Source: an uncultured Pseudomonadota bacterium (GTDB lineage Bacteria > Pseudomonadota > Gammaproteobacteria > Steroidobacterales > Steroidobacteraceae). Taken from it: 40,577 bases of DNA. Position 1 is the first letter of the stretch. The number at the start of each line of letters is the position of its first letter. The position numbers and the translations under genes were made by a program. The notes under the pieces are model-generated. The model saw only the letters and a list, made by a program, of their open reading frames with translations. It did no database searches and had not been told where the DNA came from. Positions 8,514-38,070 of this stretch are shown here, one piece after another. The DNA lies in contig CAIOZU010000021.1 in the NCBI GenBank assembly GCA_903862885.1, positions 1-40,577 on the forward strand. The letters run 5' to 3'.

Positions 8514-11500
8514 CTAGGCAGCGACCGACACACCATTCGGCATCGAGCGCTGTGCACTCTTAAACTGAAGAAGCAATTCCGCCTGGTTTTTCTTGACCTT
8601 CATCACGTTGCCATCTTTGACAGTATCAAAACCGCGGATTTGCTCTGGTAGCGCAGCCAATTGAACGGCCACCGCATAATTGTCAGCCGTCAATCCTACT
8701 AGCACCTCATCGATCATCCGCTCGTAGTCGGTGATCAATGTCCGCTCTAAACGACGATGCTCCGCGTAACCAAATACATCGAGCGGCGTGCCGCGCAGAC
8801 ACTTCATTTTAGCCAGGACATGAAATAAGGGCAGCATCCACACACCGAATTTTCGCTTTCTGTAGCGCCCGGTGGCGGCATCCCGACCGAGCAAGATCGG
8901 TGGCGCTAGATTGAACTCGATCTTATATCTTCCTTCAAAAGCGGCATCGAGTCGCTCCCGAAAACTTGGCTCTGTAAATAAGCGCGCCACTTCATACTCA
9001 TCTTTGTACGCCATGAGCTTAAAGTAGTATTGCGCGACCGCCTCAGACAAAGCGCCAGGCTGACCCATCAGCGTTGCCTCTCGAGCACTCACTTTGTCAA
9101 CCAGCGAGCGATAGCGCAGCGCATAAGCCGCATTCTGATACTGAGCCAGCGTCTTTACCCGAAGCAGAAAACGCTCTGATGCGTTCTTAGGCTGACGCGA
9201 GGCCTCGCGTGACTCGCTTGGTTTCGCCACCTGCTCCACGTAAGCCAGATCCTGCGCCGCAAGCCGGCCCCAGGATAAGGCAGCGCGGTTCATCTCTACT
9301 TGCACTCCGTTAAGCTCAATCGCTCGTTCAAGCGCGGCAAGGCTCACCGGCAGTAAGCCACGCTGCAGTGCATAACCTACCAAGAAGAGATTGGCAGCCA
9401 CCGCATTCCCCATGAGGGCAGTAGCCAGCGACGTGGCGGCGATAAATTCTGCTTTCTCCTCACCGGCCACGCTGAGAATCGACAGTACCATCGGTTCAGC
9501 GGACAGATTCAGATTGGGATTGGTGGCAAACGCAAACGTCGGTGCCACATGGCTATTAACGACTAAGCGGGTATGCCCACCACAAATTTTTGACAATGCA
9601 TCAAGACCCGTCGTCACCACGATGTCGGCACCCAAAATCAGTTGTGCGCCGGCCGCCCCAATTCGCGTCGCATGGATATCTGATGCCGCACGCGCTACCC
9701 GCACATGACTTGTGACCGGGCCGTTACGTTGTGCAAGGCCTGCCACATCGAGGACTGAGCAACCTTTCCCCTCTAGGTGTGCGGCGACACCAATCAGCGC
9801 GCCCACCGTCACAACGCCGGAGCCACCGATACCGGTGATTAAAATACTGTAAGGCGTATGACAGTCGGCGGTGACTGGCACGGGCAATTGGGATAATCGG
9901 CTCGACAGCTCACTGGTGCCTATGGATACGGGCTCCGAGCCACGACTGCGCGGCTTGCCACCGTACACCGTGACGAAACTTGGGCAATAGCCTTTTAAGC
10001 ACGAAAAATCTTTGTTACAGGCGGACTGGTTGATTTGCCGCTTGCGTCCAAACTCAGTCTCCACCGGTTCGATCGCAATGCAGTTGGATTGCACACTGCA
10101 ATCACCACAGCCCTCGCACACCGACTCATTGATAAAGGTACGCTGCTCTGGATCAGGTGCCGTCCCGCGCTTTCGCCGGCGACGCAACTCAGTGGCACAG
10201 GTTTGATCATAGATAATCGCCGACACCCCAGGCCACTCTCGTAACTCACGTTGCACTTGGTCGAGCGTATCGCGGTGATGTACCGTGACCCCTGGTGCAA
10301 ACTGCGAATTCCCCTGATATTTGTCCAGATCGCCACTGACGACGGCAATGCGGCCCACACCCTCCGCATGCACCTGACGGCTCAGCGCATCAACCTGCAC
10401 TTGACCTTCGACTGCCTGGCCGCCTGTCATGGCGACCGCATCATTGACTAAGATTTTGTAGGTGATGCGCACCTTAGCCGCCACCGCCGCTCGAATCGCC
10501 ATAATCCCTGAGTGGAAATACGTGCCATCCCCTAGGTTTTGAAAAATGTGCTCGGTCTTATTAAATGGCGAGATGCCAATCCAGGAAACTCCCTCGCCAC
10601 CCATTTGTGCAATGGTCAAGGTACGCCGCTCGGGCAAAAACAGCGCCATACCATGGCAACCAATCCCACCGAAAGCGACGCTGCCCTCAGGCACATTGGT
10701 CGAGGTGTTATGCGGACAGCCCGCGCAAAACGCAGGGAGTCGCATCAAGCCACCGGAAGCGGTGGGCGACTGTCCGACGGCTTGCTCTAACGCGCTCACC
10801 CGAAGTGCCAGTGCGTCATCGGCCTGCAGCGCCAGCAGGCGCCGACCGATGACGACGGCGACCGCCACGGAAACTAATTCGCCCTCCGAACTCAGCAGCG
10901 AGCGGCCCTGCTCATCAAACTTGCCGACGAGACGAGGATGGGTAGGCAGATTGTAGAGCAGCTTAGCGAACTGGTCCTCCATGACCGGTCGCTTTTCCTC
11001 GACCACCAAAAGCTCCTGCTGGTCGCGTGCAAAATCTATGGCTTTAGTGGGCTCCAGTGGCCACGGCATGGCTACCTTATAAACCGACACGCCAAGACGC
11101 TGGCAGGCCGTCTCATCGAGCCCCAATTTATCTAGTGCTTGCATTACATCGAGAAAGGCTTTACCGGACGTCACAATACCTAAGCGCCTGGTAGGACTGT
11201 CACGTACCACCCGATCTAATGCATTTTCGCGCACAAAGGCGAGCGCTGCCGGGATGCGCTGCCGATACTGACGGAGCTCCTGCATAGCGGGTGCCATGCC
11301 CCATTTGATATGTACGCCATCTCGCGGCGTCGTCGTAGGATCCGGCAAGCGGACTTGAATACGCAAAGGATCAACGGACACCGACGCACTGCTCTCAATC
11401 GTGTCAGTTACACACTTCATCCCGATCCAACAGCCAGAGAACCGTGACAACTCAAAACCATACACACCAAAATCCAAATAATCTTGAACGTTGGACGGGT

Positions 11501-12050
11501 TAAGATAAGGCATGCCAAAATGAATAAAGGCATGATCGCTTTGATGCGCAGTGGTCGAAGACTTCGCACCATGATCATCGCCAGCCAACACCAATACGCC
11601 GCCTTTCGGAGAGGCGCCGGCGTAACTACCATGCTTTAGCGCATCACCGGCCCGATCGACACCGGGTCCCTTGCCGTACCAAAGCCCAAACACGCCGTCG
11701 TACTTGGCCCCCGCCATCAGTTCGCTTTGCTGTGAGCCGGATACCGCCGTTGCGCCTAGCTCTTCATTGATGCCCGGCTGAAAATGAATGTGGTGACTTT
11801 GCAGGTGCTTGGCTGCCTGCTTAAGAGCTAAGTCATAGCCGCCTAAGGGCGATCCGGTGTATCCGGAAATAAAACCTGCCGTATTAAAACCTGCTGCTAA
11901 ATCCCGCTCCCGCTGCATCAACGGCAGTCGTACCAAGGCTTGCGAGCCGGTCAGATAGATCCGCCCGGACTGCTGGGTGTAACGATCATCTAACTGATAT
12001 GTGAGATCGACCGACTGCTCAATCGACTGCCGCTTGGAATCCAATGACAT
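8514..12050 (-). CDS. Fused indolepyruvate ferredoxin oxidoreductase family 2-oxoacid oxidoreductase
   Basis: 1178 residues, the size of the single-chain IorAB-type proteins of proteobacteria. In order: an N-terminal transketolase-like half (FISGYTGSPLGGYD), CAGCPHNTST near residue 438, a TPP-binding segment (GDGTYFHSG to NDAVAMTGGQ) at about 505-545, and a cysteine-rich iron-sulfur segment from about 643 (CEGCGDC, then CNKDFSCLKGYC). A gamma-type domain begins near 735 (ITGIGGSGVVTVGAL), followed by a C-terminal region like DUF6537. The family decarboxylates 2-oxoacids, typically arylpyruvates, to acyl-CoA with electron transfer to ferredoxin. It starts 3 nt after the VOC gene, so it is translated as part of this operon. 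The real substrate and electron acceptor are unknown; no ferredoxin gene is close. Confidence 0.93.
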   Translation of the reverse strand: MSLDSKRQSIEQSVDLTYQLDDRYTQQSGRIYLTGSQALVRLPLMQRERDLAAGFNTAGFISGYTGSPLGGYDLALKQAAKHLQSHHIHFQPGINEELGATAVSGSQQSELMAGAKYDGVFGLWYGKGPGVDRAGDALKHGSYAGASPKGGVLVLAGDDHGAKSSTTAHQSDHAFIHFGMPYLNPSNVQDYLDFGVYGFELSRFSGCWIGMKCVTDTIESSASVSVDPLRIQVRLPDPTTTPRDGVHIKWGMAPAMQELRQYRQRIPAALAFVRENALDRVVRDSPTRRLGIVTSGKAFLDVMQALDKLGLDETACQRLGVSVYKVAMPWPLEPTKAIDFARDQQELLVVEEKRPVMEDQFAKLLYNLPTHPRLVGKFDEQGRSLLSSEGELVSVAVAVVIGRRLLALQADDALALRVSALEQAVGQSPTASGGLMRLPAFCAGCPHNTSTNVPEGSVAFGGIGCHGMALFLPERRTLTIAQMGGEGVSWIGISPFNKTEHIFQNLGDGTYFHSGIMAIRAAVAAKVRITYKILVNDAVAMTGGQAVEGQVQVDALSRQVHAEGVGRIAVVSGDLDKYQGNSQFAPGVTVHHRDTLDQVQRELREWPGVSAIIYDQTCATELRRRRKRGTAPDPEQRTFINESVCEGCGDCSVQSNCIAIEPVETEFGRKRQINQSACNKDFSCLKGYCPSFVTVYGGKPRSRGSEPVSIGTSELSSRLSQLPVPVTADCHTPYSILITGIGGSGVVTVGALIGVAAHLEGKGCSVLDVAGLAQRNGPVTSHVRVARAASDIHATRIGAAGAQLILGADIVVTTGLDALSKICGGHTRLVVNSHVAPTFAFATNPNLNLSAEPMVLSILSVAGEEKAEFIAATSLATALMGNAVAANLFLVGYALQRGLLPVSLAALERAIELNGVQVEMNRAALSWGRLAAQDLAYVEQVAKPSESREASRQPKNASERFLLRVKTLAQYQNAAYALRYRSLVDKVSAREATLMGQPGALSEAVAQYYFKLMAYKDEYEVARLFTEPSFRERLDAAFEGRYKIEFNLAPPILLGRDAATGRYRKRKFGVWMLPLFHVLAKMKCLRGTPLDVFGYAEHRRLERTLITDYERMIDEVLVGLTADNYAVAVQLAALPEQIRGFDTVKDGNVMKVKKNQAELLLQFKSAQRSMPNGVSVAA

Positions 12051-12053
12051 GCC

Positions 12054-12455
12054 TTAACCTTCCTGCATGAACTCGATGGTATTGCCATCTGGGTCTTCCA
12101 CCATCGCCACCCGCACCCCCGGTCTCAGTTGGAAGGGTTTGACCGCAATACGGTAGCCGGCGATGCGACATTTCTCAGCCAGCTCGTCCATATTCTTGAC
12201 CGACAAGGTGCAGTAACGAAAGCCCGTGGCCGCGGCATAGCCACCCCCCTGAACTGCATGCTCAGGCGGCTTATCGAGGATCAATAGCTTGATCACACTG
12301 TCGCCACATTTCAGTCTTCTAACGACGCCGCCGGGAACGGGTATGGTCGCTGCCAGCTCAAGGCCCAGGGTGTCGCAATAAAAAGCGAGCGCCGCCTCGG
12401 CATTTGCTGTCACCACACCGATATCCAAGCACTGTTTACTTAATTGAATGCTCAT
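12054..12455 (-). CDS. Small VOC-superfamily (glyoxalase/bleomycin-resistance fold) protein
   Basis: 133 residues, one vicinal-oxygen-chelate unit pair. It begins with a DIGVVTANAEAALAFYCDTLGLEL segment and ends with AMVEDPDGNTIEFMQEG, where the Glu is the usual metal ligand of the last strand. The family includes glyoxalase I, methylmalonyl-CoA epimerase and fosfomycin-resistance proteins. In a CoA operon an epimerase or isomerase role is conceivable, but the usual epimerase His pattern is not clearly visible. AGG precedes ATG 12455 closely. Its stop lies 3 nt before the start of the large oxidoreductase, suggesting translational coupling and a shared pathway. Fold call firm, function open. 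Confidence 0.85.
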   Translation of the reverse strand: MSIQLSKQCLDIGVVTANAEAALAFYCDTLGLELAATIPVPGGVVRRLKCGDSVIKLLILDKPPEHAVQGGGYAAATGFRYCTLSVKNMDELAEKCRIAGYRIAVKPFQLRPGVRVAMVEDPDGNTIEFMQEG

Positions 12456-12500
12456 GTTTACCTGTCTTTATACCAATGATAATGGGTGGAGACGCGCAAG

Positions 12501-12938
12501 TTAATCGACGAGGACCCAACCGGGTATAGACACATCCGACGCGTGCTGCCTGAAAGCGACCCGCAGCTTCGCGCCGATCTTAAGACCTGCCTCATCCACA
12601 CCGGTGATGCCACCGTCTTTTGACATGAGATGGCCAATGATCCGTATATGAGGGTCCTCAGCCACCTGCGCCAACACCACCACATAGGGCAGCAGCAGCT
12701 CAAAGGCCGGCAACAACGGGGGCTGTGGCTTGGTATACGACCAGACCGTGGCGTCTCCTGACAGGGGACGCCAACGGTGATCGAGCGACTGACACTGGGG
12801 ACACATCGGTCGCGGTGGAAAACGATGCGCTTGGCAACCCGCACACTGCTGAACCACCAACTGAGAGCGCAGGGTGGCCTCCCAGAAGGGGGCATCAATC
12901 GGATCCGCCGTAAACGGCAAGGGAATCGTGTCGATCAT
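12501..12938 (-). CDS. DUF35 Zn-ribbon/OB-fold protein, partner of the adjacent thiolase-fold enzyme
   Basis: 145 residues. An N-terminal helix (DAPFWEATLRSQL) leads into a rubredoxin-like zinc ribbon with Cys32, Cys35, Cys46 and Cys49 (CAGC, CPQC), followed by an OB-fold (TVWSYTKPQ, LPYVVVLAQVAEDPHIRIIGHL). This is the full DUF35 architecture. DUF35 proteins act with thiolase-superfamily partners, for example in archaeal thiolase/HMGS complexes, BbsAB and Ltp2-ChsH2. The start codon follows the stop of the thiolase-fold gene with no gap (TAAATG), and its ribosome-binding site (GGAGA) lies inside that gene. This argues strongly for translational coupling and a 1:1 complex. Confidence 0.92.
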   Translation of the reverse strand: MIDTIPLPFTADPIDAPFWEATLRSQLVVQQCAGCQAHRFPPRPMCPQCQSLDHRWRPLSGDATVWSYTKPQPPLLPAFELLLPYVVVLAQVAEDPHIRIIGHLMSKDGGITGVDEAGLKIGAKLRVAFRQHASDVSIPGWVLVD

Positions 12939-14087
12939 TTATTTTCTCCGCAGCAGCAGCGCCCCGTTGGGCGTGCTGTCACAAGCGGTCACCAGAGAAT
13001 AGTCGACATCAGGCACTTGGGCGGTAGAGGTACCGCGTACTTGCCGAACGGCCTCAACGATTAAGTTGAGTCCGTGTAAGTACACTTCTGACAAGCTGCC
13101 GCCGGAGGTATTCACCGGTAATCGTCCACCTAAGCGTGTGCCGCCCTCAGCCACAAACTGCGCGGCTGTGCCCGGCTCACAGAACCCATAGGCTTCTAGA
13201 GAAAACCACACCAGCGGAGAAAAAGCGTCATAGAACTGGGCGACGTCTACATCGTTTGGACCACAATCCGCCTGGCGCCACAAATTAGCCGCAGTGACGC
13301 ACGAACTACTGCGCAGCGGATTCTCACCGTGCCAGTCGGTATTCACTTGATGCTGGCGATTTAAACCCTGCGAGAACGCATGGATGAAAGCGGGTCGCTG
13401 TCGCAAATCCTTCGCCCGATCTGCCCGCACCATCACCAGCGCAATCGCTCCATCGGTCTCTAAACAATTATCGAATAAACACAAAGGATCCGCGATCATG
13501 CGGGCATCCATATATTGCTGATGAGTCAGAGACCGGCTCTGCATAAATGCGAGCGGGTTTTTATGGGCATACTCACGCTGCGCGAGTGCCACATGCGCCA
13601 GCTGCTCTCTGGTCACGCCATATTCATGCATATAGCGTTGGGTAAACATCGCGCATTCATCCGCGGGACGCACTAGCCCTGAGGGTCTCGACCACTTCCA
13701 GTGGTCAGTGATGCGCTCCTGCACCCCTGCCCACACACGCGTACTGCGCGCACCGCGTTTACGCGAGCGCCACACTACCCCGACATTGGCAACCCCGGCA
13801 GCCAAAGCCACCGCCACCTGACCTACCGCGCCACAGCCTGCGCCACCGCCCCACGGCGACTGACAAAAGTAGTGCAGCTCGCCCAGCCCCACATTACGAG
13901 CGACTTCAAACTCTGGCGTGTGCTCCATCGTGAAGCTGCCTAAGGCATCCACATCGGAGGGCTTAAGACCTGCATCATCAAGCGCCAATTGGATAGCCTG
14001 ACAGGCCAACTCCAATTCACTGCCCGGCAAAGACTTGGCGAAGGAGGTTTGGCCAATGCCCACAATGGCGGTCTGATCCTTAAACAC
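12939..14087 (-). CDS. Ltp2-like thiolase-superfamily protein lacking the nucleophilic cysteine; probable retro-aldol CoA lyase
   Basis: 382 residues of SCP2-thiolase fold. The start is GTG at 14087 with GGAGGG 7 nt upstream. Aligned by eye with the neighbouring true thiolase (24147), the nucleophile Cys88 falls on Gly81 in SPWGGGAGCGAV, so Claisen cleavage by the normal mechanism is not possible unless nearby Cys85 substitutes. C-terminal motifs are AQFYDAFSPLVWFSLEAYGF (Tyr286) and VNTSGGSLSEVYLHGLN (Tyr336, His338) in place of the thiolase GHPxG loop. This pattern is what I remember of Ltp2, the aldolase that works with a DUF35 domain to cleave steroid side chains. The DUF35 gene is directly coupled downstream. 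Substrate unknown. Confidence 0.85.
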   Translation of the reverse strand: MFKDQTAIVGIGQTSFAKSLPGSELELACQAIQLALDDAGLKPSDVDALGSFTMEHTPEFEVARNVGLGELHYFCQSPWGGGAGCGAVGQVAVALAAGVANVGVVWRSRKRGARSTRVWAGVQERITDHWKWSRPSGLVRPADECAMFTQRYMHEYGVTREQLAHVALAQREYAHKNPLAFMQSRSLTHQQYMDARMIADPLCLFDNCLETDGAIALVMVRADRAKDLRQRPAFIHAFSQGLNRQHQVNTDWHGENPLRSSSCVTAANLWRQADCGPNDVDVAQFYDAFSPLVWFSLEAYGFCEPGTAAQFVAEGGTRLGGRLPVNTSGGSLSEVYLHGLNLIVEAVRQVRGTSTAQVPDVDYSLVTACDSTPNGALLLRRK

Positions 14088-14625: not shown

Positions 14626-15591
14626 ATGGACATCAAGGCGCTGGCTTATGTGGGATTTGGATCCACCAACCCGCTCGAGTGGCTACAGTTTGGAACCCAT
14701 GTCCTCGGCATGATGCCGGCACGGGCCGTCCCCGGTGTAGGCTGGGGACCACCCACCGTACCCCGCCCTGCCAGTGAGCAAACAGGCATCGGCACGGATG
14801 GATCGGTGTACCTCAAGATGGACGAGCGCCAGTGGCGCATCGCCGCGCACCCACACAAAAAAAATGGCGCTCTTTTGTACATGGGCATGGAGTTTGATGG
14901 ACCTGAGCCCTTCGCGACCGCCTTAAAAGAACTCAAAGACGCCCGTATCGAGGTCACCATGGGCACGGAACTCGAGGCGGCTGCCCGTGCGGTCACTGAG
15001 CTGGCTCGCATACGTGATCCCAACGGCGTGTCGATCGAATTATTTTATGGCCACACCTGTGACTACATGTTTCACTCACCCTACTACGATCATCAGTTCG
15101 TTGCCGGCCATCTGGGTGTCGGCCATATGAATCTCTTCTTACAAAAACAACCCGAGTGCTTCGAGTTCTACACCCAGGTGCTGGGTTTCCGTCTCTCGGA
15201 TTACATTAGCTTTGGTCCCGGCGTGCGTCTGCAGTTCTTACGTTGCAATCCAAGGCATCACAGCCTTGCAATCGTGGATCTGGGTGGTGTCACCGGAGTT
15301 CAGCACTTTTTAGTAGAGATGGCCGACATTGATATGGTGGGCCGCACCCTAGATAGAGCCAAGAAAGCCGGCTACAAGGTGGTCGCCGCTTTGGGCCGAC
15401 ACCGCAACGACGGCATGCTGTCCTTCTACATGCGTGGTCCCGGCGGCTTTGACGTGGAAGCAGGCTGTCAAGGCAAGCTGTTAGACGAGACCTGGAGAGC
15501 GAACGAGTTCTGTGAGGGGGACCCCTGGGGTCACGACGGCATCATCGATGCGATGGGAGAATCCTTAAAAGACATGGCGCAGCAACCATAA
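14626..15591 (+). CDS. Type I extradiol ring-cleavage dioxygenase (BphC/HsaC-like)
   Basis: 321 residues made of two VOC modules. The first runs from LAYVGFGSTNPLEW to SIELFYGH, the second from VGHMNLFLQ to GFDVEAG. The Fe(II) ligands of BphC-type enzymes are conserved: His167 in GVGHMNL, a His in RHHSLAIVD (211/212) and Glu278 in GFDVEAG. The second-shell Asp262 (GRHRNDGM) and Tyr268 are also seen. It should open a catechol ring next to the hydroxyls using O2. Compared with HsaC/BphC there is an extra loop at about residues 31-58 near the substrate side. AGGAG at 14614-14618 precedes the ATG. No meta-cleavage hydrolase is in the window, so the following step must be encoded elsewhere. Confidence 0.93.
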   Translation: MDIKALAYVGFGSTNPLEWLQFGTHVLGMMPARAVPGVGWGPPTVPRPASEQTGIGTDGSVYLKMDERQWRIAAHPHKKNGALLYMGMEFDGPEPFATALKELKDARIEVTMGTELEAAARAVTELARIRDPNGVSIELFYGHTCDYMFHSPYYDHQFVAGHLGVGHMNLFLQKQPECFEFYTQVLGFRLSDYISFGPGVRLQFLRCNPRHHSLAIVDLGGVTGVQHFLVEMADIDMVGRTLDRAKKAGYKVVAALGRHRNDGMLSFYMRGPGGFDVEAGCQGKLLDETWRANEFCEGDPWGHDGIIDAMGESLKDMAQQP

Positions 15592-20789: not shown

Positions 20790-21692
20790 ATGCTGACGGG
20801 AAAAGTCGTGGTGGTGACAGGTGCCGGTAATGGCGTCGGTGCAGAAATCGCTAAGCTCGCCGCCCGATATGGCGCTCAAGTGGTCGTCAATGACGCCGGC
20901 GTATCCACCGCGGGTGAAGGGCGTGACCCCACCGTGGCGAAGCGCATGGTCGCTGAGATCGTAGCCGGCGGTGGCAAGGCCATCGCCAGTGTCCGCGATG
21001 TGGCCGATTGGGACGATGCGTATGGCATCATTCAAGATGCCATTGATGCCTATGGTCGCGTCGATGCGGTCATTAATAATGCGGGCGTCGTACGCGATGC
21101 CATGTTCCATAAAATGACGAAAGAGGAATTTGACTTCGTCGACAGCGTCAATCTGCGCGGTGTCTTCTACGTGTCACGCGCCGCCGCACCTTATTTCAAG
21201 GAACAAAAAAGCGGCTGCTACGTTCATATGACCTCCACCAGCGGTCTGATCGGCAATATCGGACAAGTCAACTATGGCGCCACCAAAATGGGCGTGGTGG
21301 GTCTCTCTAAGTGCATCGCGATGGACATGAACCGCTATGGCGTCACTACTAACGTCATCGCGCCCTTTGCCTGGACGCGCATGGTCGCTACCGTCCCTGA
21401 GACACCTGAAAACCAGCGGCGCCTAGAAATGGCGCGGCGGCTAAAGCCCGAAAAAATTGCACCCATGGTAGTGGCATTGGCCAGCGATGCAGGTCGAAAC
21501 ACCACAGGCCAAATCTTCGGCGTACGCAATAACGAAATTTTTCTATTCAGCCAGCCACGTCCAATTCGTAGCGCACACACCGCCGAGGGTTGGACGCCGG
21601 AAACGGTCGTAGAACGCGTCCTCGCGTCTTTTCAGCCGAGTTATACGCCACTTGAACGCTCAAGCGACATCTTCAGCTGGGACCCCGTGTAA
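20790..21692 (+). CDS. HSD17B4-like short-chain dehydrogenase (probable 3-hydroxyacyl-CoA dehydrogenase)
   Basis: 300 residues. SDR motifs are TGAGNGVGAEIAKLAA near the start, VVNDAG, NNAGVVRDAM, HMTSTSGLIG and the catalytic YGATK. The NDAG after beta-2 and the long C-terminal tail (TGQIFGVRNNEIFLFSQPRPI) match the SDR domain of peroxisomal multifunctional enzyme 2 and its stand-alone bacterial relatives. It would oxidise a (3R)-hydroxyacyl-CoA with NAD+. It is followed 42 nt later by a MaoC hydratase-2, so the two domains that are fused in HSD17B4 are encoded here as neighbours. GAGG lies 9 nt before the ATG. It is the first gene of the plus-strand run. Confidence 0.9.
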   Translation: MLTGKVVVVTGAGNGVGAEIAKLAARYGAQVVVNDAGVSTAGEGRDPTVAKRMVAEIVAGGGKAIASVRDVADWDDAYGIIQDAIDAYGRVDAVINNAGVVRDAMFHKMTKEEFDFVDSVNLRGVFYVSRAAAPYFKEQKSGCYVHMTSTSGLIGNIGQVNYGATKMGVVGLSKCIAMDMNRYGVTTNVIAPFAWTRMVATVPETPENQRRLEMARRLKPEKIAPMVVALASDAGRNTTGQIFGVRNNEIFLFSQPRPIRSAHTAEGWTPETVVERVLASFQPSYTPLERSSDIFSWDPV

Positions 21693-21734: not shown

Positions 21735-22598
21735 ATGAACCTGCACGCGCTACAACACCATCAGTTCCCAAGCCAGCGCTTCACCTACAGCGTAAAGGAC
21801 ACTGCCCTTTACGCGCTCAGTGTCGGTGTGGGCGACGATCCTCTAGATCCCCACCAGCTGCGTCTGGTCTATGAAAAAACGCTGCGGGCATTGCCCACCT
21901 TCGCGTCTGTGATTGCAGTGCCAGCGCCGTGGATTCGGAACCCCGCCTTCGACGTGCACTATGAGCGACTATTACATGGTGAACAAACACTGACGATGCA
22001 CGCACCGCTGCCGGCGAATGCTGACGTGGAAGCTCACTACCGAGTAATTGCAGTCGATGACAAGGGTGCCCAGAAAGGGGCGCTGCTACATTTTGAGCGA
22101 TCCCTTTCCGAACTCGCCACCGGCGAGACCTTATGTACCGTGACATCCACCCTGTTTCTACGTGCAGACGGCGGATGCGGCAGTTTCGGCGTGCCACCGG
22201 CTGCTTGGCCAAGTGCGCCCACACACGCGTTTTCCGGCACCCCGGATTTCACTGACGAACTCACCACGACCGCCCGTGCGGCCTTACTGTACCGACTCAA
22301 TGGCGATCTTAATCCCCTCCACATTGACCCGGCAGCAGCCACGGCGGGTGGTTTCGATCGGCCCATCTTGCATGGTCTGTGTACCTATGGGATCGCGGGA
22401 TACCTGTTAGTGAGAACCGCCTGTGAGCACGACCCTAGTCGACTGCGCGTGCTTAATGTGCGCTTCAAGTCCCCCGTCTACCCAGGCGAAACCATCCGCC
22501 TAGAGGCTTGGCGCGGACCCGAGGGCATTCATTTCCAAGCCATCGTGCCGGAGCGCAATCAAGTCGTTCTCAGTAACGGCTTTGCCCGCATCCAATGA
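21735..22598 (+). CDS. MaoC-type (R)-specific 2-enoyl-CoA hydratase, double hotdog
   Basis: 287 residues, the size of the double-hotdog hydratase-2 found in HSD17B4 and steroid pathways. The C-terminal hotdog carries the hydratase-2 motif YRLNGDLNPLHIDPAAATAGGF, with Asp191, Asn193 and His196 in the catalytic positions, then PILHGLCTYG. The N-terminal hotdog (FTYSVKDTALYALSVGVGDDP) shows the usual opening of this class. It hydrates trans-2-enoyl-CoA to the (3R)-hydroxyacyl-CoA used by the SDR just upstream. The ribosome-binding site is weak, which fits coupling to the preceding gene. Function is well supported; chain type is unknown. Confidence 0.92.
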   Translation: MNLHALQHHQFPSQRFTYSVKDTALYALSVGVGDDPLDPHQLRLVYEKTLRALPTFASVIAVPAPWIRNPAFDVHYERLLHGEQTLTMHAPLPANADVEAHYRVIAVDDKGAQKGALLHFERSLSELATGETLCTVTSTLFLRADGGCGSFGVPPAAWPSAPTHAFSGTPDFTDELTTTARAALLYRLNGDLNPLHIDPAAATAGGFDRPILHGLCTYGIAGYLLVRTACEHDPSRLRVLNVRFKSPVYPGETIRLEAWRGPEGIHFQAIVPERNQVVLSNGFARIQ

Positions 22599-22687: not shown

Positions 22688-24127
22688 ATGTCTGACCGTG
22701 GAATTAAATCGTATGCTGCCTACATCCCGCGGCTACGCATGGATCGTGCCGCCATCGCCGCTGCCCACGCATGGGCAATGCCCAGTTTAAAATCAGCTGG
22801 CAAAGGCGAACGCGCATTTTGTAGCTGGGATGAAGATTCGATCACCATGAGTGTCGATGCGGTACGCACGTGTCTACAAAGCCCGCTCGCTAGCTCCATC
22901 GGTTCACTGAGTTTTGCTTCTACGACCGCGCCGTTTGCCGACCTGCAAAACGCGAGCGTCATCGCGGCGGCCTCGGGATTGCGTGCGGACATCTCGTCCT
23001 CAGACGTCAGTGGCTCACTGCGCGCAGGAACATCCGCACTCATTCAGGCGCTTGAATCCGCGCAGACCACCGACTCGATGGTGGTGGCGGCTGATAACCG
23101 ACGCGCCAAACCCGCCAGCCTCCAAGAGATGCAATACGGCGCCGGCAGTACCGCTGTTCGCATCGGCACGGGCGATCTGATTGCGCGCTATTTGGGCAGC
23201 GCCAGCGCCATCAGTCAGTTTGCGGATCATTTTAGAAGCAACGGGCAATTGTACGACTATCACTGGGAAGAGCGTTGGGTTCGTGACGAAGGGTATCTTA
23301 AGATCGTACCGGAGGTCGTTGAGAGACTTTTAAAGAACAGCGGCGTATCGGCGGCCCAAGTCGATTATTTTTGTCTCGCCAGCACCATCTCGGGCGTCGC
23401 ACCGGCGGTGGCTAAGAAACTCAAGATCCGCCCCGAGGCGGTCGTTGATAAATTAGCCAGTCGCTGCGGTGACAGTGGCACGGCGCATCCTTTAATGATG
23501 CTCGCTCTGGCCCTTGAGACGGCCAAGCCCGGACAGCGCATCTTGGTCGTCGGCTTCGGAGCGGGAGCTGATGCCTTGCTGTTTGAAGCCACGGATGCGA
23601 TTGCATCCTACCGCTCGGCCGCTACGGTCAGCAGCCAAGTGGCGCGTGGCGTCACCGACAAGAGCTATAACAAACTGCTGTCGTTTAGTGGCGAGCTGGC
23701 CCTCGATTGGGGCATGCGCGCCGAGTTTGATGCAAAAACATCCCTCACCCAACTGTATCGTTCCAGCGATCAAATCATTTCTTTTATCGGCGGTCAGTGT
23801 ACGGCATGCAGTGCGATCCAATTTCCGCGCATGTCAGCCTGCGTGCGCTGCGGGTCGGATGCCCTCCTCACTCCCATCCCACTAGCCGATGAAGCGGCGA
23901 AAGTCGCCACCTTCACCGCCGACTGGCTGCAGTACTACCCCGCACCGCCGCTCTATGTGGGCTTAGTGCAATTTGACAATGGGGCGCGGACTTTAATGGA
24001 AATGGTGGACGTGGTCCCAGAGCAATTTGACGTGGGTCTCGCACTTCGCATGGTATTTAGAATCAAAGAACGAGACGGTTTACGTCACCATCATCGTTAC
24101 TTCTGGAAGGCAACGCCGGTAGGCTGA
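22688..24127 (+). CDS. HMG-CoA-synthase-like/DUF35 fusion with degenerate synthase active site
   Basis: 479 residues. Residues 1 to about 345 form a thiolase-superfamily, HMG-CoA-synthase-like domain (VAADNRRAKPASL, YGAGSTAVRIG, RCGDSGTAHPLMMLA). From about 360 follows a DUF35 unit with a zinc ribbon of Cys371, Cys374, Cys385 and Cys388 and an OB-fold (VATFTADWLQYYPAPPLYVG). Aligned by eye to HMGS, the nucleophile Cys falls on Leu111 (SLRAGTSAL) and the catalytic His on Ala231 (DYFCLASTISG), so HMGS chemistry seems lost. A good ribosome-binding site (GGAG, 8 nt) precedes the ATG. A thiolase with an intact nucleophile starts 19 nt downstream, suggesting that this protein is its DUF35-bearing partner or scaffold. 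Confidence 0.88.
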   Translation: MSDRGIKSYAAYIPRLRMDRAAIAAAHAWAMPSLKSAGKGERAFCSWDEDSITMSVDAVRTCLQSPLASSIGSLSFASTTAPFADLQNASVIAAASGLRADISSSDVSGSLRAGTSALIQALESAQTTDSMVVAADNRRAKPASLQEMQYGAGSTAVRIGTGDLIARYLGSASAISQFADHFRSNGQLYDYHWEERWVRDEGYLKIVPEVVERLLKNSGVSAAQVDYFCLASTISGVAPAVAKKLKIRPEAVVDKLASRCGDSGTAHPLMMLALALETAKPGQRILVVGFGAGADALLFEATDAIASYRSAATVSSQVARGVTDKSYNKLLSFSGELALDWGMRAEFDAKTSLTQLYRSSDQIISFIGGQCTACSAIQFPRMSACVRCGSDALLTPIPLADEAAKVATFTADWLQYYPAPPLYVGLVQFDNGARTLMEMVDVVPEQFDVGLALRMVFRIKERDGLRHHHRYFWKATPVG

Positions 24128-24146
24128 GCTCGTTTAAGGAATCATT

Positions 24147-25349
24147 ATGGCAACTGGCATTAAAGATAAAGTCGCAATCATTGGTATGGGCTGCTCCAAG
24201 TTTGGAGAGCGTTGGGATTGCGGTACAGAGCACTTATTAAATGAAGCGTTTCAGGAAGCGCTGCTCGATGCGGGTATTGAAAAAAGCCGTATCGGCGCGG
24301 CGTGGTATGGATCGGCCGTGGATCGAGTTAATGTGGGCACCTCGGCAATCCCGGCGACCACTGCGCTTCGTTTGGGTGGCATCCCTTTCACCCGCGTGGA
24401 GAACATGTGTGCGACCGGTACCGAGGCACTGCGCGGAGCCGCCTATGCGGTGGCAGCAGGCGTTGTCGACATTGCCTTAGCGATTGGTGCGGAAAAGCTC
24501 AAAGATACCGGCTACGGTGGTCTACCGATCGGCACACGCGGCACCTTAAATGACTTGGTATTACCCGCCACCTCAGCACCCGGTGGATTTGCACAATTAG
24601 CGGCGGGTTATCGGGCGCGCTACGGCGTGTCACGACAAGATCTTAAAAATGCGATGGCACGAGTCTCTTGGAAGAGCCATCAGAATGGCGCCAAGAACCC
24701 CAAGGCACATCTCCAAAAAGAAGTCGACCTAGATACCATTCTCAATGCCCCACTGATTGCTGATCCGCTCGGCATTTATGATTGCTGCGGTGTGAGCGAT
24801 GGCGCTGCCTGTGCGATCGTCACGACCCCTGAGATTGCTCGGTCTTTAGGAAAGCGGGATTTGGTCACGATCAAGGCGCTGCAACTGTCACTGAGTGCGG
24901 GGGTGGAGATCGGGACTGCCGATTGGGATGGTAGCTACGTACTTAATACCCGTATTGCTGCACAAAAAGCCTACGCTGAGGCGGGCATTCGCAACCCCCG
25001 CAAAGAAATCAGCATGATGGAGGTACACGATTGCTTCTCCATCACGGAACTGGTGACCATGGAAGACTTAGGGATCTCCCCCGATGGTGGGGCAGTTAAG
25101 GACATCATGGATGGCTTTTTCGATGCGGACGGCGGCGTGCCGTGTCAGATTGATGGCGGCCTAAAATGCTTCGGTCACCCCATCGGCGCCACCGGTCTTC
25201 GAATGGCCTATGAGAACTACCTTCAGCTGCTCGGGCGTGCGGGTAAGCGTCAGTTAAAAAATCCGGTAGTCGGTCTCAGTCACAACTTAGGTGGCGTGCC
25301 TTACAACTGCTTAGCCGCCATCGCGATCTTGGGCCTGGCAACACGTTGA
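24147..25349 (+). CDS. SCP2-type thiolase (acyl-CoA acetyltransferase)
   Basis: 400 residues with the thiolase core intact. The nucleophile is Cys88 in RVENMCATGTEALRGAA. A His lies in MEVHDCFSITEL, the C-terminal loop is LKCFGHPIGATGLRM, and SHNLGGVPYNC ends the fold. It would cleave a 3-ketoacyl-CoA with CoA. AAGGA lies 7 nt before the ATG, and the gene follows the HMGS-like/DUF35 fusion by 19 nt. DUF35-dependent thiolases (archaeal acetoacetyl-CoA thiolase complexes, BbsB) have such an organisation, so the two products probably form one enzyme. With the SDR and MaoC genes upstream this gives a complete hydration-oxidation-thiolysis set. Confidence 0.93.
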   Translation: MATGIKDKVAIIGMGCSKFGERWDCGTEHLLNEAFQEALLDAGIEKSRIGAAWYGSAVDRVNVGTSAIPATTALRLGGIPFTRVENMCATGTEALRGAAYAVAAGVVDIALAIGAEKLKDTGYGGLPIGTRGTLNDLVLPATSAPGGFAQLAAGYRARYGVSRQDLKNAMARVSWKSHQNGAKNPKAHLQKEVDLDTILNAPLIADPLGIYDCCGVSDGAACAIVTTPEIARSLGKRDLVTIKALQLSLSAGVEIGTADWDGSYVLNTRIAAQKAYAEAGIRNPRKEISMMEVHDCFSITELVTMEDLGISPDGGAVKDIMDGFFDADGGVPCQIDGGLKCFGHPIGATGLRMAYENYLQLLGRAGKRQLKNPVVGLSHNLGGVPYNCLAAIAILGLATR

Positions 25350-25846: not shown

Positions 25847-26043
25847 TCATGTATTTAGGGGTGACTGGGCCTTCGTGCAGTTCAAGAACAAGCCACCGGT
25901 CTAGCGCGGTATCATAGTGATCCATAGAGGATCGCACGCAAGGCCATCGTCAAGACACATCATGAAGCATCATCCGCATCCACAATTCCTTGAGCCCATC
26001 GACTGCTGGCCATCGCAGAGCTTCACGGTGCAGAGCGTTCGGC

Positions 26044-26553
26044 ATGGCTGACTTACCTGAGCTCGTTAAAAGCTGGATAGGCAAAGCCGTCGTGGTGGTT
26101 GAGCGGACCGTCACCGTAGAAAAAGAATCATGGCTTAATTTCTGTGCAGCGATCCAAGACGGTAATCCGCTGTATTGGGATGAATCCTTTGCCCAATCGC
26201 ATACGGATCACACCATCGCTCCTTTCGCGATGCTGCCGAGTTGGGGCAGCACGCACCCTTGGTATCCCGGCAAGCAAGGCGATGGCGTCCGCGCCATGGA
26301 ATTGCATTTTATGCTGAAGGAAGCGTTGGCTTACCCAAATGGCATCGTCACCAGTGTGGAGATGACCTATCACGAGCCGGTGCGCGCGGGGGACTCGGTG
26401 CGAGTGGAACAGATTTTACGAAACGTCAGCGAGGAACGGGCGACCCGACTGGGACCCGGCCGGGATTGGACGATCGAAGTGGTTTATCGCCGGCAGGATC
26501 AGGTCCTGCTGGGCTTGGAATCTATGTCATTCCTAGGCTATCGCCGCAGCTAA
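26044..26553 (+). CDS. MaoC-like dehydratase, non-catalytic partner subunit (ChsH2-N/FAS1-DH type)
   Basis: 169 residues from ATG 26044 (MADLPELVKSW). A longer frame opening with TTG at 25990 adds 18 residues without family character, so I reject it. It is a single hotdog of the FAS1-like dehydratase type: VTVEKESWLNFCAAIQDGNPLYWDE, TIAPFAMLPSW, then MTYHEPVRAGDSVRVEQIL. At the hydratase-2 motif the catalytic His is replaced (NPLYWDE, Tyr44), so it likely lacks its own active site. The next gene, 16 nt downstream, encodes a hotdog with that motif intact. The pair mirrors the ChsH1/ChsH2 heteromeric enoyl-CoA hydratase of steroid side-chain degradation, in which the large substrate is shared by two subunits. 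Confidence 0.87.
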   Translation: MADLPELVKSWIGKAVVVVERTVTVEKESWLNFCAAIQDGNPLYWDESFAQSHTDHTIAPFAMLPSWGSTHPWYPGKQGDGVRAMELHFMLKEALAYPNGIVTSVEMTYHEPVRAGDSVRVEQILRNVSEERATRLGPGRDWTIEVVYRRQDQVLLGLESMSFLGYRRS

Positions 26554-26569
26554 GCCAACAGGATCGACC

Positions 26570-27031
26570 ATGAACCCCACCCTTGCTCTGCACGCCCGCT
26601 TACCTACCCGACGCATTGAGGTCACCACGAAGTCCATCATCATGGGCGCGGTGACGAGCCGTGATTGGGCCCCCTTGCACCATGATGTCGTGTGGGCAAA
26701 GAGCGAGGGCAATTTACCTAACATCATCATGAACAACTACACCCAAGCAGGCCTTATCAACGCCTATGTAACGGATTGGTCGGGACCCGCCGCTCGGATC
26801 GGTCGCTTGCGCTTTTCAATGCGAAGCCCCATTTGCCCGGGCGATGCCTTAGATCTATCCGGCGTCATTGAGACCATTGACCCTGAGCCTGAGCTCATCT
26901 GGGTGAGTCTTGCCATCGAGTTGACAGTCGGTGACCGACTGGCCACCCGATCCACCGTACGCGTGGCCTTACCGGTGAGCGAGCAATCGCCCTCGCTGTG
27001 GCAGCGTCGCGCCGATGCGTGGCAGCCCTAA
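26570..27031 (+). CDS. MaoC-like enoyl-CoA hydratase, catalytic partner (ChsH1-like)
   Basis: 153 residues, a single hotdog. The hydratase-2 signature is present as VTSRDWAPLHHDVVWAKSEG, with Asp32 and His37/His38, followed by NIIMNNYTQAGLINAYVTDW and the C-terminal strand MRSPICPGDALDLSG. AGGA lies 7 nt before the ATG and only 16 nt separate it from the partner hotdog gene. It would hydrate an enoyl-CoA too bulky for a double-hotdog enzyme; the product could go to the Ltp2-like lyase or to an SDR. Family and pairing are well supported; substrate is inference. Confidence 0.88.
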   Translation: MNPTLALHARLPTRRIEVTTKSIIMGAVTSRDWAPLHHDVVWAKSEGNLPNIIMNNYTQAGLINAYVTDWSGPAARIGRLRFSMRSPICPGDALDLSGVIETIDPEPELIWVSLAIELTVGDRLATRSTVRVALPVSEQSPSLWQRRADAWQP

Positions 27032-29473: not shown

Positions 29474-29668
29474 TAAGTTATGATTTAACGTCGCGTGCCC
29501 TGAGAGCCACCGCCCCAGTGCCGCGCCCGTACGACCGACGCCCACGGTACGAGTACCAACTGAGTACCCACCAACGCCATGATCAACCCAACCTGCACCC
29601 CCCTCCGAGTTGATCAAAAGCGGTGTGTGGAGAGCATCGAACTGAGACCACTGGAACGGATAGATTTT

Positions 29669-30859
29669 ATGGACTTTGATTTCAGCGCCGACGAAAAACG
29701 ATTCATCGAGGAGGTACGCGCCTTCCTCCGCGAGCAGGCCTTGCTGCCCGACGCCGCCGATGTGATGGCGCCCAATCGTGATTCTGACTCGATGCTCTCC
29801 GATACCCCCGCACGGCGGCGCTTCAACCGAGAAATGGCTAAGCGCGGCTATCTCGGCATGTCATGGCCCAAAGAATACGGGGGCAGCGAGAAGAGTGGTA
29901 TCTACGAGTATCTACTCAATGAAGAATTGGCCCGCGTCGGCGCTCCTCTCATCGGTAAAGGCATCGGCATCGTTGGCAAGACGCTGATCCGCCATGGATC
30001 AGACAAGTTAAAAACTGAGTTCTTACCCAAGATTCGCAACGCCGAGATCGAATTCGCACTCGGCTACTCAGAGCCCGGTGCAGGCTCTGATCTTGCCTCA
30101 CTTAAACTCAAAGCAGAGCGAAGTGGTGAGGGTTGGCTATTCAACGGACAAAAAATCTGGAACACCTCAGCACATTTTGCCGACTGGTATTGGCTGGCGG
30201 CACGCACTGATCCCCAAGCAGCCAAGCATAAAGGCATCAGCCTGTTTCTCGTACCGATGCATGAAAAAGGCATCACGGTCTCCGCTATCCATACACTCGG
30301 CGAACACCGCACCAATCATGTATTTCTCGATAATGTCTGGGTGCACGATGATTACCGTGTCGGGGAACTCAACAAGGGTTGGACGTATATCTCTGAAGCG
30401 CTCGACTTTGAGCGCTTTACGATTTATCCGTTCAGCCCCCTCGAGGCCAAGCTAGAACAGATGTGGAAGCATATAAAAACCACTCAACGTAATGGCCAAC
30501 GTTTGACAGCTGTCCCCGAGATACGCCGCCAAATGGCGCGCCTAGTGGCCCAAGTAGAGACCGCGAAAATGCTACAGCGCAGTGTGATTTTCTCCGCGTC
30601 TCAAGGAGGCGTTCCCACGGTGGAAGCGTCGATGTGTAAGTTATATACCACCGCGCTTTCGCAAAGACTGGCCAACACCATGATGGATATCCTCGGTGCA
30701 GATGGGCTGCTGCATAAGTCATGGCCCGATGCGCCAGACGCGGGCAAGTGGGAGTGGCTCTATCGCTCCAGTGCACTGGAGACGATTGGCGCAGGCACCT
30801 CAGAGATTCAGAAAAACATCATTGCTCGTCGCGGTCTCGGCCTACCTCTAACTAACTGA
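29669..30859 (+). CDS. Acyl-CoA dehydrogenase, probable catalytic subunit of a heteromeric ACAD (ChsE1-like)
   Basis: 396 residues from ATG 29669 (MDFDFSADEKRF), the normal ACAD start; the in-frame 29579 start adds 30 unrelated residues. FAD/substrate motifs are ALGYSEPGAGSDLASLKLKA and WNTSAHFADWYWLAART. The C-terminal ALETIGAGTSEIQKN has Ala where MCAD has its catalytic Glu. A Glu does occur in EALDFERFTIYPF, matching the helix-G catalytic site of IVD and LCAD, so this subunit looks active. The next gene encodes an ACAD without that Glu. Such pairs form alpha2beta2 enzymes in steroid degradation. It dehydrogenates an acyl-CoA at C2-C3, with electrons passing to ETF. Confidence 0.91.
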   Translation: MDFDFSADEKRFIEEVRAFLREQALLPDAADVMAPNRDSDSMLSDTPARRRFNREMAKRGYLGMSWPKEYGGSEKSGIYEYLLNEELARVGAPLIGKGIGIVGKTLIRHGSDKLKTEFLPKIRNAEIEFALGYSEPGAGSDLASLKLKAERSGEGWLFNGQKIWNTSAHFADWYWLAARTDPQAAKHKGISLFLVPMHEKGITVSAIHTLGEHRTNHVFLDNVWVHDDYRVGELNKGWTYISEALDFERFTIYPFSPLEAKLEQMWKHIKTTQRNGQRLTAVPEIRRQMARLVAQVETAKMLQRSVIFSASQGGVPTVEASMCKLYTTALSQRLANTMMDILGADGLLHKSWPDAPDAGKWEWLYRSSALETIGAGTSEIQKNIIARRGLGLPLTN

Positions 30860-34846: not shown

Positions 34847-35980
34847 TCAGCCAACGGCGGTCCGCTTCTTCTTCTCTGGATCATCGAACGGCAGAGTGTG
34901 CGCGGTCGCGGGCCCCTTGACCGTCTTGCCGCGCACTTCAAGCTTGGTGCCATGAACCGCCAATGGCGTCTCGATACGCATAATCGCCATGGATTTCTTC
35001 GTCAGGCTCGAGTACATGCCAAAGGTAATTACGCCGACCTTCTTGCCCGCTGAATACACTTCATCACCTAAGTCAGCCGGCACGTTGCCATCTACTAAGA
35101 GACCGAAGATCTTGAAGCGCTCTTTGCCCTTCAAGCGCCAGTGCTGATCGGCACCCCGGAAATCCGTTTTTCCTGGGCTCACCGTGAAATCAAGGCCCAA
35201 CTCCCACAAGGAGTCGCCTGCAGGATCCTTATCAAAAGGATACATCTGCGACATATCGTAGGGATAAAACAGCAAGGAACTCTCGACGCGCAACATATCT
35301 AATGTCGAGAAGCAGGCGGGCACAATACCCATCGACTTGCCCTCGCTCAGGATGGTATCCCATACGACGCCGGCATCGGCTCCTTTGACAAAGATCTCGT
35401 AACCGCGTTCACCGGTATAACCGGTACGCGAAATCGTCACCGCACAGCCAAACAACGTCGCCGGTGTGTGATGAAAGTACTTCAAATCACGAATACCGGG
35501 CACATGCTTCGCTAGGAAATCCACAGCCACGGGCCCCTGCAAGGACAGATCGTGCAAATCATCATCGAACAATAATGACGCATTACGACCCGTCACTAAA
35601 GGCGCCAATGTCTCGTGCCCCGCTCCACTTCCATGCACGACCATCCAGGCATTTGGGCCTGTGCGATAGAGGACACAGTCCTCAATAAAGTGACCGGCGT
35701 CGCTCAGCATCGTGGCGTAGGCTGATTTACCTGGGTAGATCTTGTCAACGTTGCGGCTGGTCGCATATTGCAAGATTGCCGCGGCATGTGGACCCACTAA
35801 ATGCAGCTTCTTAAGACCCGACACATCCATCAAGCCAGCTTTGGTGCGAATCGCAACGTGATGATCAACCATATTGCTGTCATAGGTCCAAGCGGTACCC
35901 ATGCCATTCCAATCTTCAAGCTTTGATCCTAACGCGCGATGTCGGTCAGCCAAAACGGTGGTGCGCCAACTGAGTGCCAT
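34847..35980 (-). CDS. GcvT-like aminomethyltransferase, tetrahydrofolate C1 acceptor of the N-demethylase system
   Basis: 377 residues from ATG 35980 (MALSWRTTVLADRH), preceded by AAGGAGTAGGAAA; the frame from 36010 is rejected. It has the GcvT folate-binding fold: KAGLMDVSGLKKLHLVGP, ATMLSDAGHFIEDCVLYR, the diagnostic SRTGYTGERGYEIFV, and the C-terminal barrel (GVITFGMYSSLTKKSMAIMRI). In haem-dependent oxidative N-demethylases a subunit of this kind binds tetrahydrofolate and captures the formaldehyde released, giving methylene-THF. It is the last gene of the minus-strand N-demethylase operon, 59 nt after the haem subunit gene. O-demethylases of the LigM/DesA type share the fold, but the neighbours favour the N-demethylase role. 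Confidence 0.88.
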   Translation of the reverse strand: MALSWRTTVLADRHRALGSKLEDWNGMGTAWTYDSNMVDHHVAIRTKAGLMDVSGLKKLHLVGPHAAAILQYATSRNVDKIYPGKSAYATMLSDAGHFIEDCVLYRTGPNAWMVVHGSGAGHETLAPLVTGRNASLLFDDDLHDLSLQGPVAVDFLAKHVPGIRDLKYFHHTPATLFGCAVTISRTGYTGERGYEIFVKGADAGVVWDTILSEGKSMGIVPACFSTLDMLRVESSLLFYPYDMSQMYPFDKDPAGDSLWELGLDFTVSPGKTDFRGADQHWRLKGKERFKIFGLLVDGNVPADLGDEVYSAGKKVGVITFGMYSSLTKKSMAIMRIETPLAVHGTKLEVRGKTVKGPATAHTLPFDDPEKKKRTAVG

Positions 35981-36039
35981 TTTCCTACTCCTTCGATGAA
36001 AGCGCGTCACCGCGCCTATAATTGTTAAAAAACGAATCT

Positions 36040-37083: not shown

Positions 37084-37101
37084 GAAGTTCCCCTACTCCG
37101 C

Positions 37102-38070
37102 CTACAGATCAATCACTAGTTTCTTGCCCTGCGCTCGAGACACACACGGCATGATCAGAGCACCCGACGCTTTTTCTTCGCTCGACAAGTAGTTGTCATT
37201 ATGGACTAAGACCCCATCGACCTCGAGCACCCGACATTTACATTCACCACACACGCCACCGCGACATAAATAAGGGGCGTCTATACCCGCGTCCTCAATC
37301 GCCTCCAGCAGACTCTGATCGGGCGGAACGCTGAGCGTAATATTCGATCTCTGAAGGAACACATCAAACGGCTCGCCCACCGGCGGTGCACTGAACTGCT
37401 CCCAGTGGATGTGACTGTTTGCCCAACCCGCCGCGCGCGCGCTGGCGATAACTCTATCAATCATCGGGGTCGGCCCACACACATACACATGGGTTCCAAG
37501 CGGCTGCGCGGCGACCAATCCCTCGATATCAATACGCTGATCTGCACTGTCGTGATAGATCCGCACGCGGTCGCCATGCCGTTTGACCAACCGGTCGGCA
37601 AATGCAGCGTGCTCCGGTCCACGCACTGAATAATGTAACTCGTAGTGCACCGAGCCCATCTTGAGATCCTCAAGCTGCGCAGCAATCGCGGTGATGCCCA
37701 CACCACCAGCAAACAGCACATGTTTCCTGGCAAGCTTGTCTAGCTGAAATAAGTTAACTGGGTGAGCAATCTCTAGCTGCATGCCGACAGTCACGTGATC
37801 GTGCATAAAAACCGAACCCCCGCGAGTCGGGTCAGCACGCCGCACCGCAATCTCATAGCTACTGAGGTCACTCGGCGAACTCAACAGAGAGTACGGATTT
37901 CGATGTACTCGGCTTGCGCCTTTCATCACCACAATGACATGTGAGCCACCAGAGAAAGCGGGCAGTTGAGAGCCATCGGAGGCTTTCAGCACGAAATGCT
38001 TAATCAGCGGAGTGACCTGGGTAATTGCTGTCACGGTAACTGCAAAGGTGTGACTGTGACTGCGGCTCAT
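37102..38070 (-). CDS. FMN/2Fe-2S reductase subunit of the N-demethylase (PDR/VanB family)
   Basis: 322 residues in phthalate-dioxygenase-reductase order: a flavin domain with HRNPYSLLSSP (RNPYS at 57-61), an NAD(P)H domain with FAGGVGITAIAAQLEDL and YVCGPTPMID (CGP at 198-200), and a C-terminal plant-type ferredoxin domain with Cys269, Cys274, Cys277 and Cys309 (CRGGVCGEC, MPCVSRA). It carries electrons from NAD(P)H through FMN and the cluster to the haem subunit encoded next. Its start codon overlaps the stop of the DmmA-like gene by 4 nt, showing tight translational coupling. The family is beyond doubt; assignment to the demethylase rests on context. Confidence 0.94.
   Translation of the reverse strand: MSRSHSHTFAVTVTAITQVTPLIKHFVLKASDGSQLPAFSGGSHVIVVMKGASRVHRNPYSLLSSPSDLSSYEIAVRRADPTRGGSVFMHDHVTVGMQLEIAHPVNLFQLDKLARKHVLFAGGVGITAIAAQLEDLKMGSVHYELHYSVRGPEHAAFADRLVKRHGDRVRIYHDSADQRIDIEGLVAAQPLGTHVYVCGPTPMIDRVIASARAAGWANSHIHWEQFSAPPVGEPFDVFLQRSNITLSVPPDQSLLEAIEDAGIDAPYLCRGGVCGECKCRVLEVDGVLVHNDNYLSSEEKASGALIMPCVSRAQGKKLVIDL

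Follow-up and report, generated by a model that had tools for sequence, protein, structure and literature searches.

A fused HMG-CoA-synthase-like/DUF35 protein without synthase catalytic residues accompanies an intact SCP2-type thiolase and is probably its non-catalytic partner

What is the role of a gene that resembles 3-hydroxy-3-methylglutaryl-coenzyme A (HMG-CoA) synthase when its product lacks the synthase residues and an intact thiolase gene follows it? The question is raised by contig CAIOZU010000021.1 (GenBank assembly GCA_903862885.1) of an uncultured Pseudomonadota bacterium of the Steroidobacteraceae, whose positions 1 to 40,577, all 40,577 nucleotides of the stretch that we analyzed, are called the window below. 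An open reading frame (ORF) at 22688-24127 (+) encodes a 479-amino-acid (aa) protein that fuses an HMG-CoA synthase (HMGS)-like domain without the synthase Cys, His, and Glu (about residues 1-335, 22688..23692) to a DUF35 zinc ribbon plus OB fold (about residues 356-479, 23753..24124; zinc Cys371/374/385/388), both domain boundaries being approximate. Nineteen bases separate its end from the start of a second ORF (24147-25349, +), which encodes a 400-aa SCP2-type thiolase with Cys88, an HDCF motif (H294-D-C296-F), and a GHP motif (GH344P).

Domain models and structure prediction give the same picture. In Pfam, ACP_syn_III_C (fusion residues 215-294) and zf-ChsH2 (residues 366-393) score above their cut-offs and OB_ChsH2_C (residues 404-458) slightly below (24.9 vs 27.1 bits); at E <= 0.01, these three are present in 75, 71, and 74 of 75 relatives, respectively. 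Two archaeal HMG-CoA synthase models from NCBIfam match the fusion under their cut-offs (174 vs 244 and 120 vs 353 bits), and the thiolase passes that of PRK06157 (649 vs 403 bits). Folded alone by AlphaFold2, the fusion reached a mean predicted local distance difference test score of 94.6 and a predicted template modeling score of 0.94. Its top Foldseek matches were PhlA, the homologous chain of 9skh (named CsATase in PMC12955522), archaeal HMGS, and MucABC chains, and the first two are the best matches of the HMGS-like half by both sequence and fold. ORFs, Pfam, and the AlphaFold2 model thus agree on the architecture first described in the initial annotation, a fused HMGS-like and DUF35 protein with a Cys88 thiolase just downstream.

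When the window fusion is aligned with the archaeal HMGS 6esq_I, Leu111 takes the place of the catalytic Cys, Ala231 that of the His, and Thr79 that of the Glu. This confirms the dismantled synthase site that had been read from Leu111 and Ala231 and extends it to the Glu. The loss is family wide. Among the 100 fusions with more than 400 aligned residues (a set that leaves out the duplicates L002 and L003, plus L020), position 111 is Gln in 60, Leu in 28, Thr in 5, Arg in 3, Met in 2, and Pro and Ala in 1 each; position 231 is Pro in 78, Ala in 11, and Ser in 6, with five others; and position 79 is Thr in 98, with 1 Val and 1 Ala. At none of the three positions does any of the 100 carry the corresponding synthase residue. 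Beyond the 100, all three residues are also absent from the fusions or HMGS-like parts of Novosphingobium sp. ES2-1, of Actinomycetota (L028, L029, and L116), and of haloarchaea (L114, L115, L117, and L120). An intact synthase with a displaced Cys can be ruled out, as no Cys of the HMGS-like half reaches 60 of the 100 fusions. The Gln that stands for Cys in 60 relatives recalls the Cys-to-Gln change that yields decarboxylating KSQ domains, yet the partner His is absent.

The thiolase residues are intact throughout: Cys88, His294, Cys296, and His344 are conserved in 95 of 95 partner thiolases, and HDCF and GHP, as well as NxC, are kept in nine more distant thiolases beside fusions or HMGS-like genes, haloarchaeal ones included. 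In the fusion, zinc Cys371 is present in all 100 sequences, and Cys374, Cys385, and Cys388 are present in the same 90. Over 94 loci, the thiolase has a mean pairwise identity of 0.676, against 0.481 for DUF35 and 0.467 for the HMGS-like half. Charged residues of the HMGS-like half, namely D48-E49-D50, E194, and R196, are invariant or nearly so; together with its conserved His residues, they are candidates for an interface, for CoA contact, or for another activity.

Linkage of the two genes was followed in a scan of genome contigs with two peptide patterns, which gave at least 592 candidate stretches, 469 of them with some relative (E <= 1e-3), from which the best 80 were kept; the sample leans towards close relatives. 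Left out of the counts were L002 and L003, which repeat the genomes of L033 and L032; the partial L017; and L018, L019, and L021-L023, whose matches are weak. L020 counts among the 101 fusion loci, and the four extras in L112-L120, which range from zinc poor to divergent, lie outside the 100 aligned fusions. A thiolase lies within 250 bases on the same strand at 95 of the 101 fusion loci. At two further loci (L091 and L109) it is cut by the contig end, and two others (L020 and L053) have no room for one.

Pairing also holds in genomes drawn without regard to the fusion. With limits of E <= 1e-100 for the thiolase model and E <= 1e-60 for the fusion profile, the 8 of 274 genomes with the thiolase were the same 8 with the fusion, and in a second draw the 10 of 398 with the thiolase were the same 10 with the fusion; at these limits, neither draw contained an orphan thiolase or an orphan fusion. 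The draws overlap, and both include the window's own genome. Were genomes independent, such co-occurrence would arise by chance at about 1e-15 and 4e-20; they are not, so these values overstate its strength. Of 19 distinct pairs, 17 are adjacent, with 12-135 bases between matched ends. In one of the others (G601), the fusion lies 834 bases from one contig end and the thiolase 477 bases from the start of another contig, so that the pair is probably split by assembly ends. Family-wide residue loss combined with near-constant linkage is not chance.

Gene order is fusion then thiolase in all six annotated plasmid regions examined first. On three haloarchaeal plasmids (L114, L115, and L117), the thiolase precedes the fusion, which lacks the synthase Cys, and at the haloarchaeal locus L120, the HMGS-like and OB-fold parts are separate genes, again without that Cys. 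A conserved antisense frame opposite the pair was read as a spurious reverse frame.

We consider it likely that the fusion and the thiolase make up one obligate two-component CoA thiolase in which the HMGS-like half is non-catalytic. The 400-aa thiolase would perform the chemistry, with Cys88 as the nucleophile assisted by the His and Cys of HDCF and the His of GHP; SCP2 thiolases use two Cys, as nucleophile and proton donor, according to passages of PMC12329534. The 479-aa fusion would have no HMG-CoA synthase activity. Its DUF35 part would dock the thiolase, and the HMGS-like part, on the same chain, would line the acyl and CoA pocket as an outer wall, which would let a bulky 3-ketoacyl-CoA be held and cleaved. 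Homologous three-module complexes have solved structures (5m3k, 6esq, and 9vbo). We infer the physical complex, the thiolysis, and the substrate from sequence and context. The earlier suggestion that the HMGS half had become a non-catalytic partner gains from the family-wide loss of synthase residues and from the tie to an intact SCP2-type thiolase, and its scaffold or substrate-binding function is kept here as a proposal.

Several known systems share parts of this design. BbsAB, the benzoylsuccinyl-CoA thiolase, joins a thiolase to a DUF35 partner, to our knowledge without an HMGS-like subunit; the window thiolase matches the BbsB model weakly, far below its cut-off (130 vs 750 bits). In the steroid aldolases Ltp2-ChsH2 and Sal-Shy, a thiolase fold is likewise held by a DUF35 domain, but these are aldolases without the nucleophile Cys, and their DUF35 is joined to hydratases, as described in parts of PMC12329534 and PMC8399759. 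The archaeal thiolase/HMGS/DUF35 complex (6esq) has the same three modules and a thiolase with HDCF. It differs in having three chains, a place in the mevalonate pathway, and a catalytic HMGS with Cys114 and Glu82 (passages of PMC6392133).

The initial annotation knew of no described bacterial enzyme of exactly this design, which goes too far, since PhlACB comes close. In this enzyme (PpATase of Pseudomonas protegens, 5m3k/5mg5), an HMGS-like PhlA without Cys and Glu, a DUF35 protein, PhlB, and a thiolase-fold PhlC with Cys88 act together, as laid out in passages of PMC6392133. The same passages report that substrate contacts come from PhlC residues only and that the entire operon must be co-expressed, and the authors regard PhlA and PhlB as very likely required for a folded complex. 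Already in 2010, the SSO2064 authors called PhlA an inactive member of the thiolase superfamily and noted DUF35 fusions to members of that superfamily (part of PMC2954200). PhlACB differs from the window pair in consisting of three chains, in being an acyltransferase active without added CoA (PMC6392133), and in falling in a separate clade. MucABC of Streptococcus macacae (9vbo/9vbt) also has an HMGS-like subunit without Cys; it differs in its separate chains and is, by its entry title, a multicomponent acyltransferase.

Three other explanations compete with a two-component thiolase. One is that the HMGS-like half has chemistry of its own, such as hydrolysis, decarboxylation, or acyl transfer, making the pair bifunctional like the archaeal complex. 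Its conserved His181, His267, E147, E194, R196, and R183 would fit such a role, as would the frequent Gln at position 111, with its KSQ parallel, and a Sphingopyxis fusion (L112) that has His at the synthase His position. Against this, the half has no conserved Cys, the window residue is Leu rather than Gln, 89 of 100 fusions have Pro or Ala where the catalytic His would be, and the half is less conserved than the thiolase. We regard this explanation as unlikely.

A multicomponent acyltransferase of the PhlACB/MucABC type, with its A and B subunits fused and transferring an acyl group to a non-CoA acceptor, would account for the shared three modules and for PhlA and the homologous 9skh chain as top sequence and fold matches. 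The thiolase active site argues otherwise. The PhlACB active-site list in PMC6392133 includes Tyr298, and two uncharacterized PhlC/MucC-like proxies from Priestia and Lactiplantibacillus show YD and no HDCF; judged by these proxies and that residue list, the window thiolase does not have a PhlC-type active site (Tyr, no HDCF). The fusion-side thiolases keep HDCF and GHP, which the proxies do not, and the comparison points to CoA thiolysis over PhlACB-type acyl transfer. The PhlA and MucA rows also form a separate starred clade in a quick tree, and the gene context is that of beta-oxidation, so this alternative too appears improbable. That the fusion is a decayed mevalonate HMG-CoA synthase without a present role is hardly credible: the synthase residues are indeed lost, and HMG_CoA_synt_N has no match in the window's own genome and matches in 7 of 14 control genomes, but the frames are open, 32 columns are invariant in 75 aligned sequences (mostly from Pseudomonadota), and the pairing is near obligate.

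If the pair is a two-component thiolase, its neighbors may indicate the substrate. It is preceded by a short-chain dehydrogenase/reductase (SDR) gene (20790..21692, +), for which the top solved structure is a (3R)-hydroxyacyl-CoA dehydrogenase (2et6, 8e-97) and the next a 17-beta-hydroxysteroid dehydrogenase type 4, and by a hydratase-2-like MaoC gene (21735..22598, +), with peroxisomal enoyl-CoA hydratase 2 and MFE-2 as best solved matches (7mku and 1s9c). The pair would probably act on a bulky ring-derived 3-ketoacyl-CoA. Counting the sister genome, and with many stretches short, SDR homologs of at least 50% identity occur in 19 of 86 neighborhoods and MaoC homologs of at least 40% in 16 of 86.

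The wider neighborhood resembles a cluster for estrogen degradation. Novosphingobium sp. ES2-1 reportedly degrades estradiol. We compared 32 window genes (630 to 34685) with 46 of the 49 annotated genes in a 48-kb stretch of its plasmid p3, and 17 of the 32 were reciprocal best hits, a few of them outside the A/B-ring part. Six shorter regions (17-19 kb) around relatives' fusions gave 2 to 7, mostly generic, and the sister genome gave 31. The window holds an IOR-family gene (8514..12050, -; 53% identity to ES2-1), adjoined, as in ES2-1, by a gene for a VOC/glyoxalase-family protein (12054..12455, -); a stand-alone DUF35 gene (12501..12938, -) adjoining that of an Ltp2-like aldolase (12939..14087, -; 59%); an EdcB-like extradiol dioxygenase gene (14626..15591, +; 37%); two MaoC-type hydratase genes (25990..27031, +) that match an ES2-1 pair at 34% and 45%; an EdcA-like cytochrome P450 gene (28095..29351, -; 36%); and an acyl-CoA dehydrogenase gene (29579..30859, +; 61% to ES2-1 20325). 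An enoyl-CoA hydratase reaches 55%, the thiolase 45%, and the fusion 30%. The edc-type set of P450, extradiol dioxygenase, IOR-family enzyme, VOC protein, Ltp2-like protein with DUF35, and thiolase with HMGS-like protein is thus together in the window, several identities being below 40%. The IOR alone is no proof of EdcC, as four relatives without the cluster have IORs that match at 51-53%, and beyond these no more than a single window gene, at 25%, had a reciprocal best hit there.

In the organism's own genome, KshA_C has two matches, on contigs C35 and C44, and C35 also matches the ES2-1 FadD3-family ligase (53%) and ketoacid CoA transferase gene (60%), which we take for IpdB/ScdL-like. From these steroid-nucleus-type genes, it appears that the organism probably degrades steroids and that the cluster is probably an edc-like upper pathway.

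The gene order in ES2-1 p3 closely follows the N. tardaugens edc cluster as described in passages of PMC7793797. There, the "HMG-CoA synthase" EGO55_13555 stands without an assigned role beside a thiolase (EGO55_13550), in a cluster with a P450, an extradiol dioxygenase, and an IOR-family enzyme. We know EGO55_13555 by its gene slot and description; the ES2-1 fusion, in the corresponding order, lacks the synthase residues. The quick tree, in which the ES2-1 row is a long branch, sets the window fusion apart from the ES2-1 edc fusion and does not support orthology of the two pairs. After two sister-type genomes, the nearest rows are Sphingosinicella and others, not ES2-1, and around one related fusion (G023; 68% identity), the thiolase is the sole window gene with a reciprocal best hit; the run of SDR, MaoC, fusion, and thiolase genes may therefore be a separately acquired module.

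For the edc route, parts of PMC12507874 give 4-norestrogen-5(10)-en-3-oyl-CoA as the EdcC product and list a thiolase among the A/B-ring enzymes. They also describe knockout of the Rhodococcus B50 thiolases AedF and AedK, with 2,3,4-trinorestrogenic acid among the new metabolites. Cleavage of a bulky ring-derived 3-ketoacyl-CoA by the window pair is probable from the gene content, and the bulky substrate proposed in the initial annotation is compatible with the steroid-type cluster. More tentatively, the substrate might be the EdcC product in its 1-oxo form, thiolysis of which would free C2-C3 as acetyl-CoA.

Several observations weigh against a two-component thiolase or its link to estrogen breakdown. 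The thiolase lies 826 bases from the fusion at L094, and at L089, the sole such locus with room among the 101, none was found in 1.48 kb downstream. In G465, the remaining one of the 19 distinct pairs, both genes are present and unlinked. Kinship among genomes does not enter into the co-occurrence counts, and the fusion has no match at all in 41 of 60 near relatives. Ten of the 100 fusions (L077, L081, L085, L087, L089, L091, L092, L100, L101, and L111) keep Cys371 and have lost the other three zinc Cys. In L112, which lies outside the 100 and still adjoins an HDCF thiolase, His aligns with Ala231 and a Cys stands two places past 111; position 111 itself is not Cys, the Glu is absent, and all four zinc Cys are gone. 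The HMGS-like half retains His181 and His267 in 91 of 100 fusions and may have another activity. Finally, the P450 and dioxygenase matches to ES2-1 are just 36-37%, and the window and ES2-1 fusions, at their 30% identity, fall in different clades of the quick tree.

Other genes in the window deserve mention. The Ltp2-like gene, its own DUF35 gene, and the VOC gene (12054-14087, -) form a second DUF35/thiolase-fold system, some 9 kb away from the fusion and thiolase genes. The Ltp2-like protein passes the PRK07855 cut-off, has Ltp2 (6ok1, 7e-92) as its best solved match and YDAF in place of HDCF, and carries Cys where Ltp2 has Ser, near the thiolase nucleophile position. Sulfotransferase-family and DUF1214 genes (4367-6812, -) lie in the cluster, and neither has a reciprocal best hit among the ES2-1 genes compared. 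Aminomethyltransferase-like, heme-dependent oxidative N-demethylase-like, and two DmmA-like genes (34847-38678, -) suggest a separate methylamine-type oxidation operon.

On balance, we lean towards an unnamed, widespread class of CoA thiolases, each an obligate pair of components, with members in Pseudomonadota, Actinomycetota, and haloarchaea. In this class, an HMGS pseudoenzyme fused to DUF35 would complete the active site of the SCP2-type thiolase, which would act on 3-ketoacyl-CoAs that are bulky or derived from rings; one member would explain the estrogen-degradation HMG-CoA synthase gene. A search of the open literature, most subscription papers lying outside its scope, found no description of the fusion family as a thiolase subunit. 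What is new is the fusion itself, the loss of synthase residues across a family whose thiolases stay intact, the pairing within the same genomes, and a connection to an estrogen-degradation gene; PhlACB and the published edc gene limit this novelty. Public annotations name relatives HMG-CoA synthase, 3-oxoacyl-ACP synthase III C-terminal protein, OB-fold protein, or hypothetical protein, and there are at least about 100 fusion loci. If the fusion is a non-catalytic thiolase half, such names lead pathway reconstruction astray. An estrogen-breakdown gene would then gain a testable role, and an HMGS fold would have been retained to serve structurally within a catabolic thiolase, in addition to its acyltransferase use in PhlACB.

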